A stretch of DNA of 64,000 nucleotides from Actinomycetales bacterium Actino_02. GTDB lineage: Bacteria > Actinomycetota > Actinomycetes > Propionibacteriales > Propionibacteriaceae. Made by a program: the position numbers and the translations under genes. Positions 51,293-58,463 of this stretch are shown piece after piece. Each line of letters begins with the position of its first letter. Position 1 is the first letter of the stretch. Below the pieces are notes generated by a model. It saw only the letters and a program-made list of their open reading frames with translations. It was not told where the DNA came from and did no database searches. The stretch covers positions 474,532-538,531 of the forward strand of contig LUYM01000006.1 of assembly GCA_001603275.1 (NCBI GenBank). Direction: 5' to 3'.

Positions 51293-51577
51293 CTATTCCG
51301 CAGCGATCGCCTCGTGGTGGCGAACCACCTCGGCGACCACGAAGGACAGCCACTTCTCGGCGAACTCCGGGTCCAGGTGAGCCTGGGTGGCCAGCCGGCG
51401 CAGCCGGGCGATCTGCTGATCCTCGCGCTCGGGATCGGCGGCAGCCATCCCGCGCTGCTTCTTCAGTAGGCCGACTCGCTGAGTGATCTTGAACCGCTCG
51501 GCGAGCAGACAGATGATCGCGGCGTCGAGGTTGTCGATCGAGCCGCGCAGGGCTTCGAGTTCGGGATCGCTCTGCAC
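51293..51577 (-). CDS. Chorismate mutase (AroQ class)
   Basis: A 94-residue all-helical chorismate mutase: ALRGSIDNLDAAIICLLAERFKITQRVGLLKK carries the Arg and Lys active-site pattern, and the C-terminal helix ends VVAEVVRHHEAIA. It converts chorismate to prephenate for Phe and Tyr. GTG at 51577 lies 6 nt after -10 TAGGCT (minus strand 51584-51589), favouring a leaderless start; a GTG at 51583 directly abuts the -10 box and is unlikely. It is convergent with the GntR gene and stands alone. Confidence 0.88.
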   Translation of the reverse strand: MQSDPELEALRGSIDNLDAAIICLLAERFKITQRVGLLKKQRGMAAADPEREDQQIARLRRLATQAHLDPEFAEKWLSFVVAEVVRHHEAIAAE

Positions 51578-51696
51578 GTCCACAGCCTACGGGGGATCGT
51601 CCGCCGCGTCGCGGGGAACGTGCCCACCGCGGACGCTCCTCTCTGCCGCCGCCGATCGCCCCCTCGACGCCGTTCTCGCTACTGAACCGAACCCCT

Positions 51697-51867: not shown

Positions 51868-52800
51868 TCAGTCGAGCAGGTCTGCGTACAGCGGGGTGGA
51901 CAGGTAGCGCTCGCCCCAGGACGGGATGATCACCACGATGGTCTTGCCGGCATTGGCCGGGTCATTGGCCAGCTCGGCGGCGGCACGCAGTGCGGCGCCG
52001 GACGAGATGCCGACCAGCAGGCCCTCCTCCTTGGCGGCCCGGCGGGCCCAGTCCAGAGCATCGTCGGAGGTCACCTTGATGATCTTGTCGATCAGCGACA
52101 CGTCCAGGATCTCCGGGATGAAGCCGGGGGAGATGCCCTGGATCTTGTGCGGGCCCTTCGGCTCACCCGACAGCACGGCCGACTCGGCCGACTCCACGGC
52201 AACCAGCTGGACGTCCGGCTTGCGCTCCTTCAGTACCTGGCCGACGCCGGTGATGGTGCCGCCGGTGCCTACCCCGGACACGAAGAAGTCGATATTGCCT
52301 TCGGTGTCGGCCCAGATCTCCTCGGCCGTGGTCTTCTTGTGGATGGCCACATTGGCCGGGTTGGTGAACTGGCTGGCCAGGATCGCGCCCGGGGTGTTGG
52401 CGACGATCTCCGCGGCGCGTGCGTTGGCGCCGGGGATGCCCTCGGCGGCCGGGGTCAGGACGAGTTCGGCTCCGAACGCGCGCAGCAAGGCGCGACGCTC
52501 CTTGGAGAACGACTCCGGCAAGGTGATGATCACCTTGTAGCCGCGGGCCGCGCCCACCCAGGCCAGAGCGATGCCGGTGTTGCCGGAGGTGCCCTCGACG
52601 ATCGTCCCGCCGGGCTTGAGCGAGCCATCGGCTTCGGCGGCGTCGATGATCGAGACACCGATCCGGTCCTTCACCGAGGAGGCCGGGTTGTAGTACTCCA
52701 GCTTGGCCAACACGGTCGCCTTACTGTCGCCGTAGAGGCGGTTGATCCGCACCAGCGGGGTGCGACCGATCAGCTGGGTCGCGTCTTCGTAAATGGGCAT
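51868..52800 (-). CDS. cysK: Cysteine synthase (O-acetylserine sulfhydrylase)
   Basis: A 310-residue fold-type II PLP enzyme making cysteine from O-acetylserine and sulfide. PLP lysine is Lys44 in [23 protein letters not shown] and the [13 protein letters not shown] loop are diagnostic. Length matches CysK. ATG at 52800 has GGAGATATCTCAG just upstream. It is the last gene of an operon with a thioredoxin-like protein and DUF4395, and the operon is preceded by a cysteine-codon leader ORF, consistent with cysteine control. Confidence 0.94.
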
Positions 52801-52835: not shown

Positions 52836-53258
52836 TCAGGCGGCCACAGCGCGGTCGACCTGTTGCAGTGCATTGACTACTTCGGACTTGCGGGCGGCGC
52901 CGACGATCCGATTGCGGACCACCCCATCGGCGTCGAGGAGCAGGACGGTGGGCGTCCTGGTGATGCCGAACTCCTCGACCAGGTCGAGGCGAGTTTCGGC
53001 GTTGAGGTCAATGTGTCGTACCCCTTCGGTGTCGGCGGCAATCTCGGCCAGCACTCGGTGGGTGGCCCGGCAGGGCGCACAGACCGTCGCAGAGAACTGG
53101 ACGAACGTGGCCTGGCTGCCCAGCGGCGAACCCAAGGCACCTTCATCCAAGCTCGGTGCAGTCCGCACCGGCTTCGCCCGGCCGTCGGTCAGCCGACGGT
53201 AGCCACCGAAGGCCAACGTCAGTGCCAGCGCCGCGAGTGCGATCCACACACCAGTCAT
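52836..53258 (-). CDS. Membrane-tethered thioredoxin-like protein
   Basis: A 140-residue protein with one N-terminal membrane helix (IALAALALTLAFGGY) and a thioredoxin fold with active site CAPC (Cys60, Cys63) in FSATVCAPCRATHRVLAEI, followed by RTPTVLLLDADG with the cis-Pro. The active site differs from canonical WCGPC by lacking the Trp and the Gly-Pro. In actinobacteria such thioredoxins commonly sit next to DUF4395, as here; a role in sulfide or thiol chemistry feeding CysK is inferred from the operon. Confidence 0.85.
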   Translation of the reverse strand: MTGVWIALAALALTLAFGGYRRLTDGRAKPVRTAPSLDEGALGSPLGSQATFVQFSATVCAPCRATHRVLAEIAADTEGVRHIDLNAETRLDLVEEFGITRTPTVLLLDADGVVRNRIVGAARKSEVVNALQQVDRAVAA

Positions 53259-53266
53259 GATCGCGC

Positions 53267-53746
53267 TCAGTTCGCCGCGCCGGCAGCCGACCCGGCGGAC
53301 AGCCGCTTGCCCAGGAGGTAGAGCTCGCAGCCGAGGCAGAAGTCGAAGATGGCATTGAGGAGCGCGGCCACCAGCGCGAAGCCGACGGCGATCCAGAACA
53401 GCACGGCCAGGCCGAAGATCCAGCCGGCCAGCCCGGCCACGGCGAAGACCAACCCGACGGACTGGGCGAATCGTGGCGGCTCGGACGCCTCAAGCTCGGC
53501 GGGAGCGCCCAGCCGCGGCCGGACGAATCGGCGGTAGACCAGCCCCCAGGGCTGCGCCTGCAGGCCCAGCAGTGAGCCGGCGGCGAAGGCCACCGTCTGG
53601 ACCAGGAGGACGATCAGGCCGGCTAATGAGGTGGGGCCGAGGATCAGAACGGTGATGAGCAGCACCGCGGTTATCGCCGCGCCGAAGCGCGGACCCCGCG
53701 GGTCGATCAGCCCGGAGCTGGCCGGGACAGAGGTGGGTTCGGACAT
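53267..53746 (-). CDS. DUF4395 family membrane protein
   Basis: A 159-residue protein with a short N-terminal tail and four hydrophobic segments; the DUF4395 core includes IDPRGPRFGAAITAVLL, GLVYRRFVRPRLGAP and a Cys-bearing end FDFCLGCELYLLGKRL, where the two cysteines may pair with the adjacent thioredoxin (inference). The family is uncharacterised but often clusters with thioredoxin and sulfur genes. ATG at 53746 has no strong ribosome binding site; the frame is open further upstream to 53872, overlapping the leader ORF region. Confidence 0.82.
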   Translation of the reverse strand: MSEPTSVPASSGLIDPRGPRFGAAITAVLLITVLILGPTSLAGLIVLLVQTVAFAAGSLLGLQAQPWGLVYRRFVRPRLGAPAELEASEPPRFAQSVGLVFAVAGLAGWIFGLAVLFWIAVGFALVAALLNAIFDFCLGCELYLLGKRLSAGSAAGAAN

Positions 53747-53856
53747 CGAGTCTCGATTCGGGTCGACGTGGATTGTGCGTGGAGTGGCGGGGACGGGCGG
53801 CCACGTGCGGGGCGGCGGATCGCTCGGTGGCGAGTCTGCGCGGCAGGTGTCGTCGG

Positions 53857-53925
53857 TCAGCGGGGACAACACATTCGCGGCACTGTGATGGCTCGATGGG
53901 AGCCTGTGTATCCACGCGCGAACAT
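53857..53925 (-). CDS. Leaderless 22-codon Cys-containing leader peptide upstream of DUF4395-trx-cysK
   Basis: ATG at 53925 lies 6 nt after -10 TAACGT and opens a 22-codon ORF ending RMCCPR and stop, so two Cys codons (19 and 20) come just before the end. There is no room for a Shine-Dalgarno, so it must be translated from the 5' end of the message. The 110 nt between its stop and the DUF4395 start is C-rich. The layout matches cysteine-responsive leaderless attenuator ORFs known in mycobacteria; the mechanism here is inferred. Confidence 0.65.
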   Translation of the reverse strand: MFARGYTGSHRAITVPRMCCPR

Positions 53926-53983: not shown

Positions 53984-55186
53984 TCAGTTCGCGGCCAGTG
54001 CCCGGTCCAGCCCAGCAGCGACATCGGCCACCAGGTCGGACGTGTCCTCAACGCCCAGGCTCAGTCGCAGCATTCCGGCGGTGATCCCCGCGGCCTGCTG
54101 CGCCTGGGCGGACATGGACGCGTGGGTCATCGTGGCCGGCACGGAGACCAGCGATTCGACACCACCCAGGCTCTCGGCCAGGCAGAAGCAGCGCAGCCCG
54201 TCGGTGAAGGCGTGGGCGGCGGCGGAGTCGGCCAGCTCGAAGGTGACGATGCCACCGAAGCCGTCCATCTGGCGGGTGGCCAGCTCATGCTGCGGGTGTT
54301 GCGGCAAGCCGGGGTAGTGCACCGCGCGGACGGCCGGGTGCCGGTTCAGTAGCTCGGCCACGGCGGCGGCATTGCGCTGGGCAGCGGCCACCCTCAGGTG
54401 CAAGGTGCGCAGTCCGCGCAGGGCCAGGTAGGAATCGAAAGCGCCGGCCGGAACGCCCAGGGTGTTCGCCCACCAGGCCAGCTCGGCACCACGCTCGGCA
54501 TCGGCGCTGACCACCACGCCGGCGATCACATCGGAGTGGCCGTTGAGGTACTTGGTGGCCGAGTGGACGACCACGTCCGCGCCGTGCGCGAGCGGCCGCT
54601 GAACGATGGGACTGGCGAAGGTGTTGTCGGCCACCACCAGTGCGCCGGACGTGTGTGCGGCGTCGCTCAGCCGGGCAAGATCGGCGATGCGCAGCAGCGG
54701 ATTGGACGGCGTCTCCAGCCAGACCAGGTCCGGTCCGGCGGCGATCGCGGCCAGTGCGGCTGCGGTATCGCTGAAGTCGACGTAGTTCAGTCGGCCGATC
54801 CGTCCGGTGCGGCGCAGCGCCTCGAAGAGCCGCCAGGTGCCGCCATAGCAGTCGGACGGGGCCAGCAGGCTGCCGTTGGCCGGCAGCAGGGCCATCACCG
54901 CTGTGGTGATGGCGCCCATCCCGGAGGCGGTGACGGTACCGGTGGCGCCGCCTTCGAGGTCGGCCACCGCCTGACCGAAGAGGTCACGGGTGGGGTTCCC
55001 GGAGCGGCCGTAGTCGTAGCGCCCCGGGCGGCCGGGGTCGTCGAACTCATAGGAGACCGAGAGGTGGAGCGGGGCGACCACGGCGCCGAAGGCGGGATCG
55101 CTGGACAGTCCCGCGCGGACGGCGCGGGTGCTGGGGTGCAGATCGGCGGGTGTCGGACAGGAGGGGTCGGTGGACGGGTTGGTCAT
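53984..55186 (-). CDS. metB: Cystathionine gamma-synthase/lyase family PLP enzyme
   Basis: A 400-residue Cys/Met-metabolism PLP enzyme. Motifs: YDYGRSGNPTRDLFGQAVADLEGG, SGMGAITTAVMALL, SDCYGGTWRLFEAL, PLP lysine in HSATKYLNGHSDVI, and SLGGVESLVSVPATMTH near the end. The last motif is typical of cystathionine gamma-synthase, which joins cysteine and an activated homoserine. I chose ATG 55186: it overlaps the stop of a 10-codon ORF by ATGA. An in-frame ATG at 55207 is possible but its ribosome binding site is better spaced for the small ORF. It follows metY by about 100 nt. Confidence 0.87.
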   Translation of the reverse strand: MTNPSTDPSCPTPADLHPSTRAVRAGLSSDPAFGAVVAPLHLSVSYEFDDPGRPGRYDYGRSGNPTRDLFGQAVADLEGGATGTVTASGMGAITTAVMALLPANGSLLAPSDCYGGTWRLFEALRRTGRIGRLNYVDFSDTAAALAAIAAGPDLVWLETPSNPLLRIADLARLSDAAHTSGALVVADNTFASPIVQRPLAHGADVVVHSATKYLNGHSDVIAGVVVSADAERGAELAWWANTLGVPAGAFDSYLALRGLRTLHLRVAAAQRNAAAVAELLNRHPAVRAVHYPGLPQHPQHELATRQMDGFGGIVTFELADSAAAHAFTDGLRCFCLAESLGGVESLVSVPATMTHASMSAQAQQAAGITAGMLRLSLGVEDTSDLVADVAAGLDRALAAN

Positions 55187-55215
55187 CGTGTGCACCTGCT
55201 CGGACATCGGCTCAT
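55183..55215 (-). CDS. 10-codon Cys-containing ORF translationally coupled to metB
   Basis: ATG at 55215 has a strong site AGGGGA 5 nt upstream and encodes MSRCPSRCTR, then a TGA that overlaps the metB ATG (ATGA). Two of ten codons are Cys. Because the ribosome binding site fits this ORF rather than metB itself, ribosomes probably reach metB by re-initiation, so cysteine shortage could lower metB translation. This is a reading of the layout; no function is demonstrated. Confidence 0.5.
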   Translation of the reverse strand: MSRCPSRCTR

Positions 55216-55283
55216 CGTCGTCCCCTTCGGGTTGAGGTGTGGCCCGGGCCGCCACAGCGGACGGCCCGGGCGAGGCAATTCGA

Positions 55284-56567
55284 TCAGAGCTGGGCCAGTG
55301 CCTGGTCGAGATCGGCGATCAGGTCGTCCACATTCTCGATGCCGAGACTCAGCCGCACCGCCTCCGGCGGAACCCCGGCTGCGGCCAGCTCCTCGTCGTT
55401 CAGCTGGGAGTGGGTGGTGGTGGCGTTGTGAATGGCCAGGCTCTTCGCGTCCCCGATGTTGGCCAGGTGGCTGAACAGGCCCAGCGCCTCGATGAACTTC
55501 GCGCCGGCCGCGCGCCCGTCCTTCAGGCCGAAGGCGAGGATGCCGCCGTAGCCGCGACCATTGAAGATCCGATCGGCAACCGCCTTGTACGGCGAGGACT
55601 CCAGGCCGGGGTAGCTGACCCAGGACACCTTGTCGTGCGCCTCGAGATACTTGGCCACGGCCAGAGCGTTGGCCGAGTGACGCTCGATCCGCAGGTGGAG
55701 GGTCTCCAGGCCCTGCAGGAACAGCCAGGCGTTGAACGGGCTGACCGCAGCACCGGTGTTGCGCAGCAGCACGGTCCGGGCCCGAATGATGTAGGCGGCC
55801 GGTCCGGCGGCGTCGGTCCAGACCACACCGTGGTAGGCGGGATCGGGCTTGGTCAGGCCCGGGAAACGGTCAGAGTGGGCGGCCCAGTCGAACTTTCCGG
55901 AGTCGACGATTATGCCGCCGACCGAGGTGCCGTGGCCGCCGATGTACTTGGTTGCGGAGTGGACGACGACGTCGACGCCGTGGTCGAAGGCCTTGGACAG
56001 GATCGGCGTGGGCACCGTGTGGTCGACGATGAACGGCAGGCCCAGCGCGTGCGCAGCCGCACTCCAGGCGTCCAGATCGACGACGTTGATGGCCGGATTG
56101 CCGATGGTCTCACCGAAGACGAGCTTGGTCTTGTCGTCGACGTGCTGGGCCAGCTCCTCGGGCTTCTCCGGATCGACGAAGCGGGCTTCGATCCCGTACT
56201 GGGCCAGGGTGTGGGCGAACAGGGCGTAGGTACCGCCGTACAGCGTGGACAGCGCGACGATGTTGTCGCCGGCGTAGGTCAGGTTCAGTACGGCGTAGGT
56301 GATCGCGGCAGCGCCGGAGGCCGTGGCCAGCGCGCCGACGCCGCCTTCGAGAGCGGTCAGCCGGGTCTCGAAGACCGACTGGGTCGGGTTCATGATCCGG
56401 GTGTAGATGTTGCCCGGCACTCGCAGTGCGAACAGGTCGGCGGCATGCTCGGTGTCGTCGAAGACGTAGCTGGTGGTCTGGTAGATCGGGACGGCGCGAG
56501 CGTTGGTGGCCGAGTCGGCCTCCTCCTGGCCGGCGTGAACCGCCAGAGTGTCGGGATGCAGGGACAT
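55284..56567 (-). CDS. metY: O-acetylhomoserine sulfhydrylase
   Basis: A 427-residue PLP enzyme that makes homocysteine from O-acetylhomoserine and sulfide. Motifs: PIYQTTSYVFDDTEHAADLF, ALEGGVGALATASG, STLYGGTYALF, ETIGNPAINVVDLDAW, PLP lysine in HSATKYIGGHGTSVGG, and NIGDAKSLAIHNATTTH, the last separating it from MetB. Length is typical of MetY. ATG at 56567 follows GAGGAG by 4 nt. A 202-nt leader precedes it, with a promoter and a Cys/Met-rich leaderless ORF; metB is downstream. Confidence 0.93.
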   Translation of the reverse strand: MSLHPDTLAVHAGQEEADSATNARAVPIYQTTSYVFDDTEHAADLFALRVPGNIYTRIMNPTQSVFETRLTALEGGVGALATASGAAAITYAVLNLTYAGDNIVALSTLYGGTYALFAHTLAQYGIEARFVDPEKPEELAQHVDDKTKLVFGETIGNPAINVVDLDAWSAAAHALGLPFIVDHTVPTPILSKAFDHGVDVVVHSATKYIGGHGTSVGGIIVDSGKFDWAAHSDRFPGLTKPDPAYHGVVWTDAAGPAAYIIRARTVLLRNTGAAVSPFNAWLFLQGLETLHLRIERHSANALAVAKYLEAHDKVSWVSYPGLESSPYKAVADRIFNGRGYGGILAFGLKDGRAAGAKFIEALGLFSHLANIGDAKSLAIHNATTTHSQLNDEELAAAGVPPEAVRLSLGIENVDDLIADLDQALAQL

Positions 56568-56697
56568 TTTTCTCCTCGGTGTGCTGATACTGCGGACTGC
56601 GTCTTGGGAGGCCCGGATCGGGCCAGATGGGTTCAGTGAGCTGTGCGCGAGCGTGCGCAGCAGCCTGAGAGTGTGGCGTTGGTGAGTCGAGGCTGAG
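56568..56697 (-). promoter_or_regulatory. metY leader RNA between the leader ORF and metY
   Basis: This 130-nt untranslated stretch starts C-rich and G-poor (CTCAGCCTCGACTCACCAAC on the minus strand), the composition expected for Rho loading if the leader ORF is left uncovered. Further on a GC stem GGCCCG-ATC-CGGGCC is followed by CCTCCC, which might pair with the metY site GAGGAG. No classical U-run terminator and no recognisable SAM riboswitch core was seen. Confidence 0.4.
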
Positions 56698-56769
56698 TCA
56701 GCACATTCGACAACGCGCCATCGACGGCATGCAGCAGCAACCCATGGTTGCGGTGCTCGTCGAGGTCAT
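56698..56769 (-). CDS. Leaderless 23-codon Cys/Met-rich leader peptide upstream of metY
   Basis: ATG at 56769 lies 7 nt after -10 TAGCGT and opens a 23-codon ORF with Cys at codons 11, 12, 13, 20 and 23 and Met at 1, 9, 14, 17 and 22; Cys plus Met make up 10 of 23 residues. With no Shine-Dalgarno and a transcript starting at or next to the ATG, it would be translated leaderlessly. Ribosome stalling at the CCC run when charged tRNA-Cys is scarce could govern metY-metB. The composition is far from chance for this GC-rich genome. Confidence 0.72.
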   Translation of the reverse strand: MTSTSTATMGCCCMPSMARCRMC

Positions 56770-56776
56770 GGCTGGA

Positions 56777-56807
56777 ACGCTAGCAGGTGTGTCCGCCTGG
56801 TGGTCAA
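56777..56807 (-). promoter_or_regulatory. metY leader promoter
   Basis: On the minus strand TTGACC (56802-56807) and TAGCGT (56777-56782) are separated by 19 bp. The predicted start falls at or next to the leader-ORF ATG at 56769. It lies divergent to, and about 100 bp from, the guaA promoter. Confidence 0.68.

Positions 56808-56909: not shown

Positions 56910-58463
<1,554 letters not shown>

Follow-up and report, generated by a model that had tools for sequence, protein, structure and literature searches.

The window, a stretch of 64,000 nucleotides of DNA from the Propionibacteriaceae, carries on its minus strand a short cysteine-rich open reading frame (ORF) ahead of metY and a cluster of sulfur genes. 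The features of this region are given here in the direction of transcription, with counts that refer to the related leaders and loci compared below.

56802..56807, minus strand: -35-like TTGACC of the leader promoter, from the sequence (TTGAC in 15 of 18 leaders)
56777..56782, minus strand: -10-like TAGCGT, 7 nt 5' of the leader ATG, from the sequence (TANNNT in 18 of 18)
56698..56769, minus strand: leader ORF with leaderless geometry, 23 codons, MTSTSTATMGCCCMPSMARCRMC* (23-codon ORF at 16 of 23 genus metY loci)
56731..56739, minus strand: upstream Cys block, codons 11-13, TGC TGC TGC (Cys in 18, 14 and 16 of 18)
56704..56715, minus strand: 3' core CGT TGT CGA ATG (RCRM), which elsewhere is TGT TGT CGA ATG (cross-lineage comparison)
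56686..56711, minus strand: predicted hairpin around the leader stop codon (folding z-scores)
56568..56697, minus strand: C-rich, G-poor, rut-like untranslated spacer (C 44%, G 22%, last 20 nt left out)
56572..56577, minus strand: Shine-Dalgarno sequence GAGGAG of metY, from the sequence
55284..56567, minus strand: metY, O-acetylhomoserine sulfhydrylase (TIGR01326, 627 bits against a cut-off of 495)
53984..55255, minus strand: metB-type cystathionine gamma-synthase, start uncertain (TIGR02080, 508.3 bits against a cut-off of 504.55)
53857..53925, minus strand: second leaderless Cys leader ORF, MFARGYTGSHRAITVPRMCCPR* (-10 TAACGT at 53937-53932)
53267..53872, minus strand: DUF4395 membrane protein (PF14340)
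52836..53258, minus strand: thioredoxin-like protein (PF00085)
51868..52800, minus strand: cysK, cysteine synthase (TIGR01136, 419 bits against a cut-off of 344; PF00291)
51293-51583, minus strand: chorismate mutase gene, 3' of cysK (PF01817)

The leader runs from an ATG at 56769-56767 to a TGA at 56700-56698, and its product contains five Cys residues, three of them adjacent, and five Met residues counting the start. The TTGACC and TAGCGT elements are separated by 19 nt, and the leader stop codon lies 130 nt from the metY ATG (56567). A preliminary description of this DNA had reported the promoter, the spacing to the ATG, the 23-codon Cys/Met ORF and the 130-nt distance, all of which were confirmed; the assignment to the minus strand is now added. 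The gap between metY and the divergent gene on the plus strand (56910-58463), which we take from its sequence to be guaA, is 342 nt long. A scan for sigma-70 promoters (spacer 16-18 nt, at least 9 of 12 matches) called none at the leader, because its rules exclude this one. NCBIfam profiles gave no matches to the leader peptides, and the Rfam covariance models (SAM or other riboswitch, T-box) found nothing at the gathering score; one weak Rfam match, to a snoRNA family (E 5.3), lies outside the gap on the plus strand at 56487-56531. A rule-based scan found no intrinsic terminator-like site before metY, which does not fit a classical attenuator of the trp type.

Downstream of metY, the second leader lies 58 nt past metB and has the core words swapped, as CGA ATG TGT TGT; among 147 genomes of the family, its exact 3' pattern occurs in 2, the window's own and G001. 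The DUF4395-thioredoxin-cysK group, with this Cys leader of its own, starts 1.36 kb past the end of metY. The DUF4395 ORF has a GTG at 53872 that overlaps the second leader, and its likely start is the ATG at 53746. When 24 metY loci of the genus were searched by tblastn, cysK lay next to metY on the same strand, at a distance of 21-115 nt, in 18, and metB followed metY in 2 (the window and G001). A chorismate mutase gene directly follows metY in 2 of the 24 (L007 and L014), where the leader is present and neither cysK nor metB adjoins, and at L026 and L027 none of the sought genes was found next to metY. The leader thus stands before genes of cysteine metabolism, as in the mycobacterial type: usually metY then cysK, and here metY-metB and then the cysK group. 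The earlier proposal that it acts on a homocysteine/methionine gene holds in so far as metY is confirmed, but the unit is wider, with cysK next in those 18 loci. The metY-cysK neighborhood and the cysK group behind the second leader therefore make cysteine, not methionine, the best fit to the controlled genes.

Thioredoxin, DUF4395 and cysK genes are also grouped behind leaders ending in CCRMR in other genera (L167, L170 and L171), in that order and with products 35-47% identical to those of the window. This grouping behind leaders suggests that DUF4395 may have a role in cysteine synthesis.

The closest named loci belong to metagenome assemblies of Propionicimonas, other Propionibacteriaceae and unplaced Actinobacteria. 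Among 30 genomes of the Propionicimonas-like genus, metY was found at E 1e-150 or better in 24, and the upstream DNA was evaluated for 23 (L018 being left out). A 23-codon ORF occupies the same position at 16 of these 23 loci, with leaderless geometry in all 16. Other Cys ORFs are present at three loci (L020, MFSTRATCRCLGVPSMTR; L023; L028), a merely possible ORF with one Cys was seen by eye at L019, and no such leader was seen at L013, L026 and L027, the first of which nonetheless has the metY-cysK arrangement. The set of 18 leaders used for comparison consists of the 16 genus leaders and two found by pattern search (L211 and L226), and it includes near-copies (L008/L211 and L021/L022). TANNNT lies 6-7 nt 5' of the ATG in all 18, and a TTGAC -35 element is missing only in L007, L021 and L022. 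More broadly, 128 distinct metY upstream regions, many of them from Nocardioides, yielded 27 with an ORF of leaderless-like geometry and two or more Cys codons and 101 without one, and the Nocardioides metY loci of this set gave no leader matches. One genome (G012) has two metY leaders (L017 and L226) on two contigs, which reflects either a second copy or a strain mixture.

The 18 leaders can be compared codon by codon. Cys is encoded in all 18 leaders at codon 11, in 17 at codon 20, in 16 at codons 10 and 13, in 14 at codon 12 and in 10 at codon 19; at codons 10-13, TGC and TGT exchange synonymously. Neighboring Cys codons are therefore kept between species, as in the mycobacterial type; loss of the Cys codons in close relatives, the outcome that the preliminary description had set against its own proposal, was not what the comparison gave. 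Internal Met is present in all 18 leaders at codon 17, in 16 at codon 22, in 14 at codon 9, in 6 at codon 14 and in 3 at codon 4. Conservation toward the 3' end extends to the nucleotides themselves: TCG-ATG at codons 16-17 is fixed in 18 of 18 leaders, and codons 20-22 are nearly fixed as TGT (17 of 18), CGA (16 of 18) and ATG (16 of 18). The background use of TGT and CGA is low: among the 64 Cys and 2116 Arg codons of 122 metY ORFs, 2 are TGT and 83 are CGA, and the corresponding counts in 11 genes of the window are 4 of 20 and 16 of 212. The TGT and CGA of codons 20-21 are rare codons under synonymous-site constraint. The metY leaders of other genera have a different body and the same end (for example MSRRDRFFSIAVTGAVLVCCRML, MFTHGSSSATVVGATVMCCRML and MTHRDLLFGALGGAVSMCCRML), written as TGT TGT CGA ATG in a comparison whose search pattern was blind to synonymous codons. 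Some metY leaders deviate from the core, namely TGTTTGCGAATG (L028), AGCTGTCGAATG (L042) and TGTCGTCGAATG (L038).

The 3' core is also found in front of other genes. A search for TGTTGTCGAATG gave matches in 43 of 147 family genomes and 0 for the reversed control; many matches are ordinary coding sequence, and leader-like ORF ends were recognized by eye at 14 of 30 loci inspected. Besides the CCRMR leaders already described, core leaders in these genomes stand before an OsmC gene (L184; PF02566), before metY and before genes without an assigned name. The gene behind the leader at L195 is, we presume, possibly thiouracil-desulfurase-like, and a Pfam search of it gave no match. A class-wide search of 296 genomes, in which a stop codon was required near the core, identified 12 places in 11 genomes from families f4, f5, f30 and f32 (reversed control, 1 genome); 11 of the 12 are leader-like (L196-L206), and L207 resembles coding sequence. 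The leader-like ORF in f30 precedes metY, with no clear -10 box seen. Those in f32 precede a winged-helix regulator, identified by Pfam at L196 and by resemblance at the others, with L197 unlike, and the core leader in f4 precedes a gene that by eye is similar to the regulator of f32.

In f5, the core leader L203 ends in CCCRMR and has a ROK regulator downstream. The ROK gene was found in 17 of 18 f5 genomes (at L270 the contig ends at the gene), and by eye a leaderless-like Cys ORF, such as VLLGALINNTAACLCAAGACCCRALCRS*, precedes it at 15 of the 16 loci with upstream DNA, with none at L268; a second ROK copy, L284, has no Cys leader. The sequence TGTTGTCG was seen by eye in 7 of these 15 ROK leaders and the remainder have TGTTGC, TGTTGTTGC or other forms, whereas the core of the window's leader starts with CGTTGTCG. 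A pattern for mycobacterial leaders, TGYTGYTGYTGY, was uninformative, being no more frequent than its reversed control (93 and 81 matches in two genomes against 139 and 86); 30 of these 174 matches were examined as loci, and the two ORFs found were both without a -10 box. In no fewer than five actinobacterial families, a near-invariant TGT-TGT-CGA-ATG core thus closes Cys leaders that precede sulfur genes or regulator genes, and this observation is new here.

The best reading of the leader is that it belongs to the polycysteine leaderless type known from mycobacteria, now in a new family and a new operon, and it very likely serves as a cysteine-responsive leader-peptide attenuator at the 5' end of a sulfide-assimilation operon. 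Judged from the promoter geometry, the leader ORF probably begins its own mRNA, and the leader most likely lets the ribosome itself gauge the supply of cysteine. This sensor step is well supported by the ORF, its conservation, the synonymous-site constraint, the promoter geometry, the gene context and the composition of the spacer; we infer the start site, the translation of the leader, its response to cysteine and the coupling step. In the proposed mechanism, the mRNA would start at the leader ATG or no more than a few bases from it, and its 23 codons would be translated. When Cys-tRNA is ample, the ribosome would clear both Cys blocks, the one at codons 11-13 and the one in the RCRMC end, and then depart. 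The leader RNA so released could base-pair at the metY Shine-Dalgarno sequence or immediately 5' of it, and the untranslated C-rich spacer would be exposed to Rho, so that expression would be low. When Cys-tRNA is scarce, a stall on the Cys codons would block pairing of the leader RNA, so that metY would stay translatable.

The weakest part of this model is the coupling step, for which control of the ribosome-binding site has roughly an even chance of being correct. This kind of control is placed somewhat ahead of Rho because it is the reported mechanism of the mycobacterial Cys leaders, as Canestrari 2020 is said to have concluded. Predicted pairing between the Cys run and the region before the Shine-Dalgarno sequence is strong in 5 of 18 leaders (L008, L021, L022, L211 and L007; z -2.9 to -5.1), which represent about three lineages; the mean z is -1.4, and z is above -1 in 10 of 18, including the window's own leader (z -0.9). 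Matched partners pair better than mismatched ones (permutation p 0.0096, with kinship ignored). In a model of the stall footprint, only 9 of 18 leaders showed a drop of more than 0.5 kcal/mol in the energy needed to open the metY ribosome-binding site (mean 8.0 to 6.9 kcal/mol), and in some (L017, L008 and L211) this energy rose.

Two more general RNA structures were considered and rejected. Universal pairing of the core with the Shine-Dalgarno region had a mean z of +0.3 in the genus (n=18) and -0.7 in the others (n=13), with good single cases only at L036 (z -3.8) and L016 (z -3.0). A universal hairpin at the stop codon is favored in the genus leaders (mean z -1.2, 11 of 18 below -1) and weak elsewhere (mean z -0.2 with 2 below -1 in 13 other metY leaders, and mean z -0.5 with 9 below -1 in 21 leaders of other genes); it is not claimed as general because of this weakness outside the genus. 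A 5' stem, TCGACG/CGTCGA, is present in 17 of 18 leaders and shows no two-sided change. The heptamer ATTCGAC, the complement of the core's GTCGAAT, was seen directly 5' of the metY Shine-Dalgarno sequence, within the last 30 nt, at L036, L028, L138 and L140.

The leader could instead sense cysteine and leave the decision to Rho, which would terminate transcription within the C-rich spacer, and access to the ribosome-binding site would not be the deciding step; the position of the ribosome on the leader would set the balance between Rho loading and RNA folds that shield a rut site. This alternative is a possibility to be held tentatively. It is favored by the search for an intrinsic terminator, which found none, and by the composition of the spacers, which average 44% C and 21% G and have more C than G in 18 of 18 leaders. 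The mean difference of C minus G is +0.224 in the 18 leaders and +0.007 in 71 of the 101 metY loci without a leader (rank test p 1e-10, kinship ignored), a contrast that may be partly trivial because the controls include upstream coding sequence. Passages of PMC1262725 had earlier suggested Rho sites, as a weak prediction, in Cys leaders of actinobacteria. However, it is not obvious how a ribosome stalled 5' of the rut region could keep Rho off unless a further RNA switch were involved, and the pairing, footprint and hairpin tests in which a conserved switch was sought found none.

A second alternative is that the leader senses both cysteine and methionine, so that a stall at either kind of codon switches the operon on. 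The Met codons at positions 17 and 22 speak for this reading, as does the ATG that ends the core in the families seen (by the pattern used). In a hand-picked, non-random comparison set, internal Met occurs in 18 of 23 leaders (41 of 570 residues) and Cys in 23 of 23, and the f32 leaders L196-L201 contain MMM. The leader of the Streptomyces lividans metNIQ operon, MSTTSDRTPATEATTTPGARCMCRRMCAF, also mixes Cys and Met and is listed as methionine-dependent in passages of PMC8079986. On the other side, Met 14 is present in only 6 of 18 leaders and Met 9 in 14, Met 17 lies within the nucleotide-fixed stretch CGTCGATGG and Met 22 within the near-fixed one, and cysK adjoins metY in most loci of the genus. 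Moreover, by eye, 12 of 13 ROK leaders in the f5 genera g35, g58 and g91 have no internal Met, and the remaining one (L280) has a single Met. The suggestion in the preliminary description that Met codons are read as well is not borne out by these counts; dual sensing is possible and not needed, and we regard it as unlikely. In the f32 leaders L196-L201, within about 60 nt 5' of the core, the codons for MMM (ATGATGATG) occupy the loop of a palindrome, and the two arms, by eye, change together (CCGGC..GCCGG and CCGAC..GTCGG; for example CCGGCATGATGATGCCGG and CCGACATGATGATGTCGG). The MMM in the loop of this variable palindrome may be structural.

The core may have a wider significance for ribosome-read control. 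We propose, tentatively, that the cysteine leaders of actinobacteria widely share a stall cassette, TGT-TGT-CGA-ATG (UGUUGUCGAAUG), on which selection acts at the level of codons. Slow, wobble-read UGU codons followed by a rare CGA would make the ribosome unusually sensitive to Cys-tRNA, and the ATG of the core might add methionine in some lineages. The cassette would be common to the leaders of metY, the cysK group, OsmC and the regulators, and could be permuted, as CGA ATG TGT TGT. On this proposal, since the core is shared across genes and at least five families, the 12-nt word would mark a class-wide, ribosome-read cysteine regulon. The same 12 nt, which are kept from gene to gene and family to family and use rare synonymous codons, could also be a DNA- or RNA-binding site for a trans-acting regulator, with the reading frame incidental. 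This alternative is very improbable: where metY leaders have the core at their end, a scan blind to the core places it in the reading frame of the assigned start, with a stop no more than a few codons on, the distance from core to start varies between lineages, and the swapped halves of the second leader still read as the codons CGA ATG TGT TGT.

Although short ORFs are common, a chance ORF in a non-coding 5' region can be dismissed almost entirely, being contradicted by the conserved length, frame, start, stop and Cys codons, by the synonymous constraint, and by 3000 dinucleotide-preserving shuffles of the 342-nt gap, of which 176 contained any leaderless-like ORF (TANNNT 5-9 nt before ATG or GTG, 8-50 codons), 3 one with at least four Cys, and 0 one with at least five Cys or with CCC.

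The attenuator reading has clear precedents. Polycysteine leaderless small ORFs act as attenuators in mycobacteria according to passages of Shell 2015 (PMC4633059) and of articles that cite Canestrari 2020 (doi 10.1111/mmi.14498), namely PMC9031893, PMC13236596 and PMC9094748; a legend in Shell 2015 places a Cys leader before Rv0485/Msmeg_0932, and a passage in PMC13236596 names the mechanism translation attenuation. The leader in the window resembles these in being a leaderless-type short ORF at the start of an operon, with neighboring Cys codons near its 3' end and genes for cysteine metabolism or a regulator downstream. Together with the ROK leaders of f5, the leader before Rv0485, presumably itself a ROK regulator, suggests an architecture common to the published type and the leader in the window, and perhaps in part a common TGTTGTCG word. 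The preliminary idea of a mycobacterial-type leader is thus upheld by the leaderless geometry, the conserved Cys codons and the position before sulfur genes. The window's leader differs in its family (Propionibacteriaceae), its metY(-cysK) operon, its two Cys blocks, its Met content, the ATG inside its 3' core and the presence of a second leader in the same gene cluster, and its response to cysteine is predicted.

Cys leaders were also predicted by Seliverstov 2005 (PMC1262725), in the passages concerned, before cys operons of Mycobacterium and Propionibacterium acnes and before cbs in Bifidobacterium longum. Like the leader described here, those have Cys runs near the stop codon, possible Rho sites and no conserved terminator hairpin; unlike it, they are not tied to metY, which that article does not name (0 occurrences); its conclusion reports that no conserved RNA structures were found upstream of methionine operons. 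The S. lividans metL leader before metNIQ (passages of PMC8079986) is likewise leaderless, with a C-terminal mix of Cys, Arg and Met (CMCRRMCAF) and no clear terminator; it differs in preceding a transporter operon and in its listed dependence on methionine. A codon-degenerate pattern for the CMCRRMC of Streptomyces metL was found in 0 of 14 genomes, and titles and abstract openings in the open literature yielded no metY Cys leader or CCRM core.

The leader, read as an attenuator, would carry ribosome-read cysteine control from mycobacteria into the Propionibacteriaceae and onto the metY-cysK genes of sulfide fixation. The core offers a short DNA word for finding further members, and the synonymous constraint on TGT and CGA makes it testable which properties of a codon let a leader sense an amino acid. 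The MetY protein itself (427 residues) contains no Cys and one Met besides the start, a composition that might suit an enzyme that is needed when sulfur amino acids are scarce.
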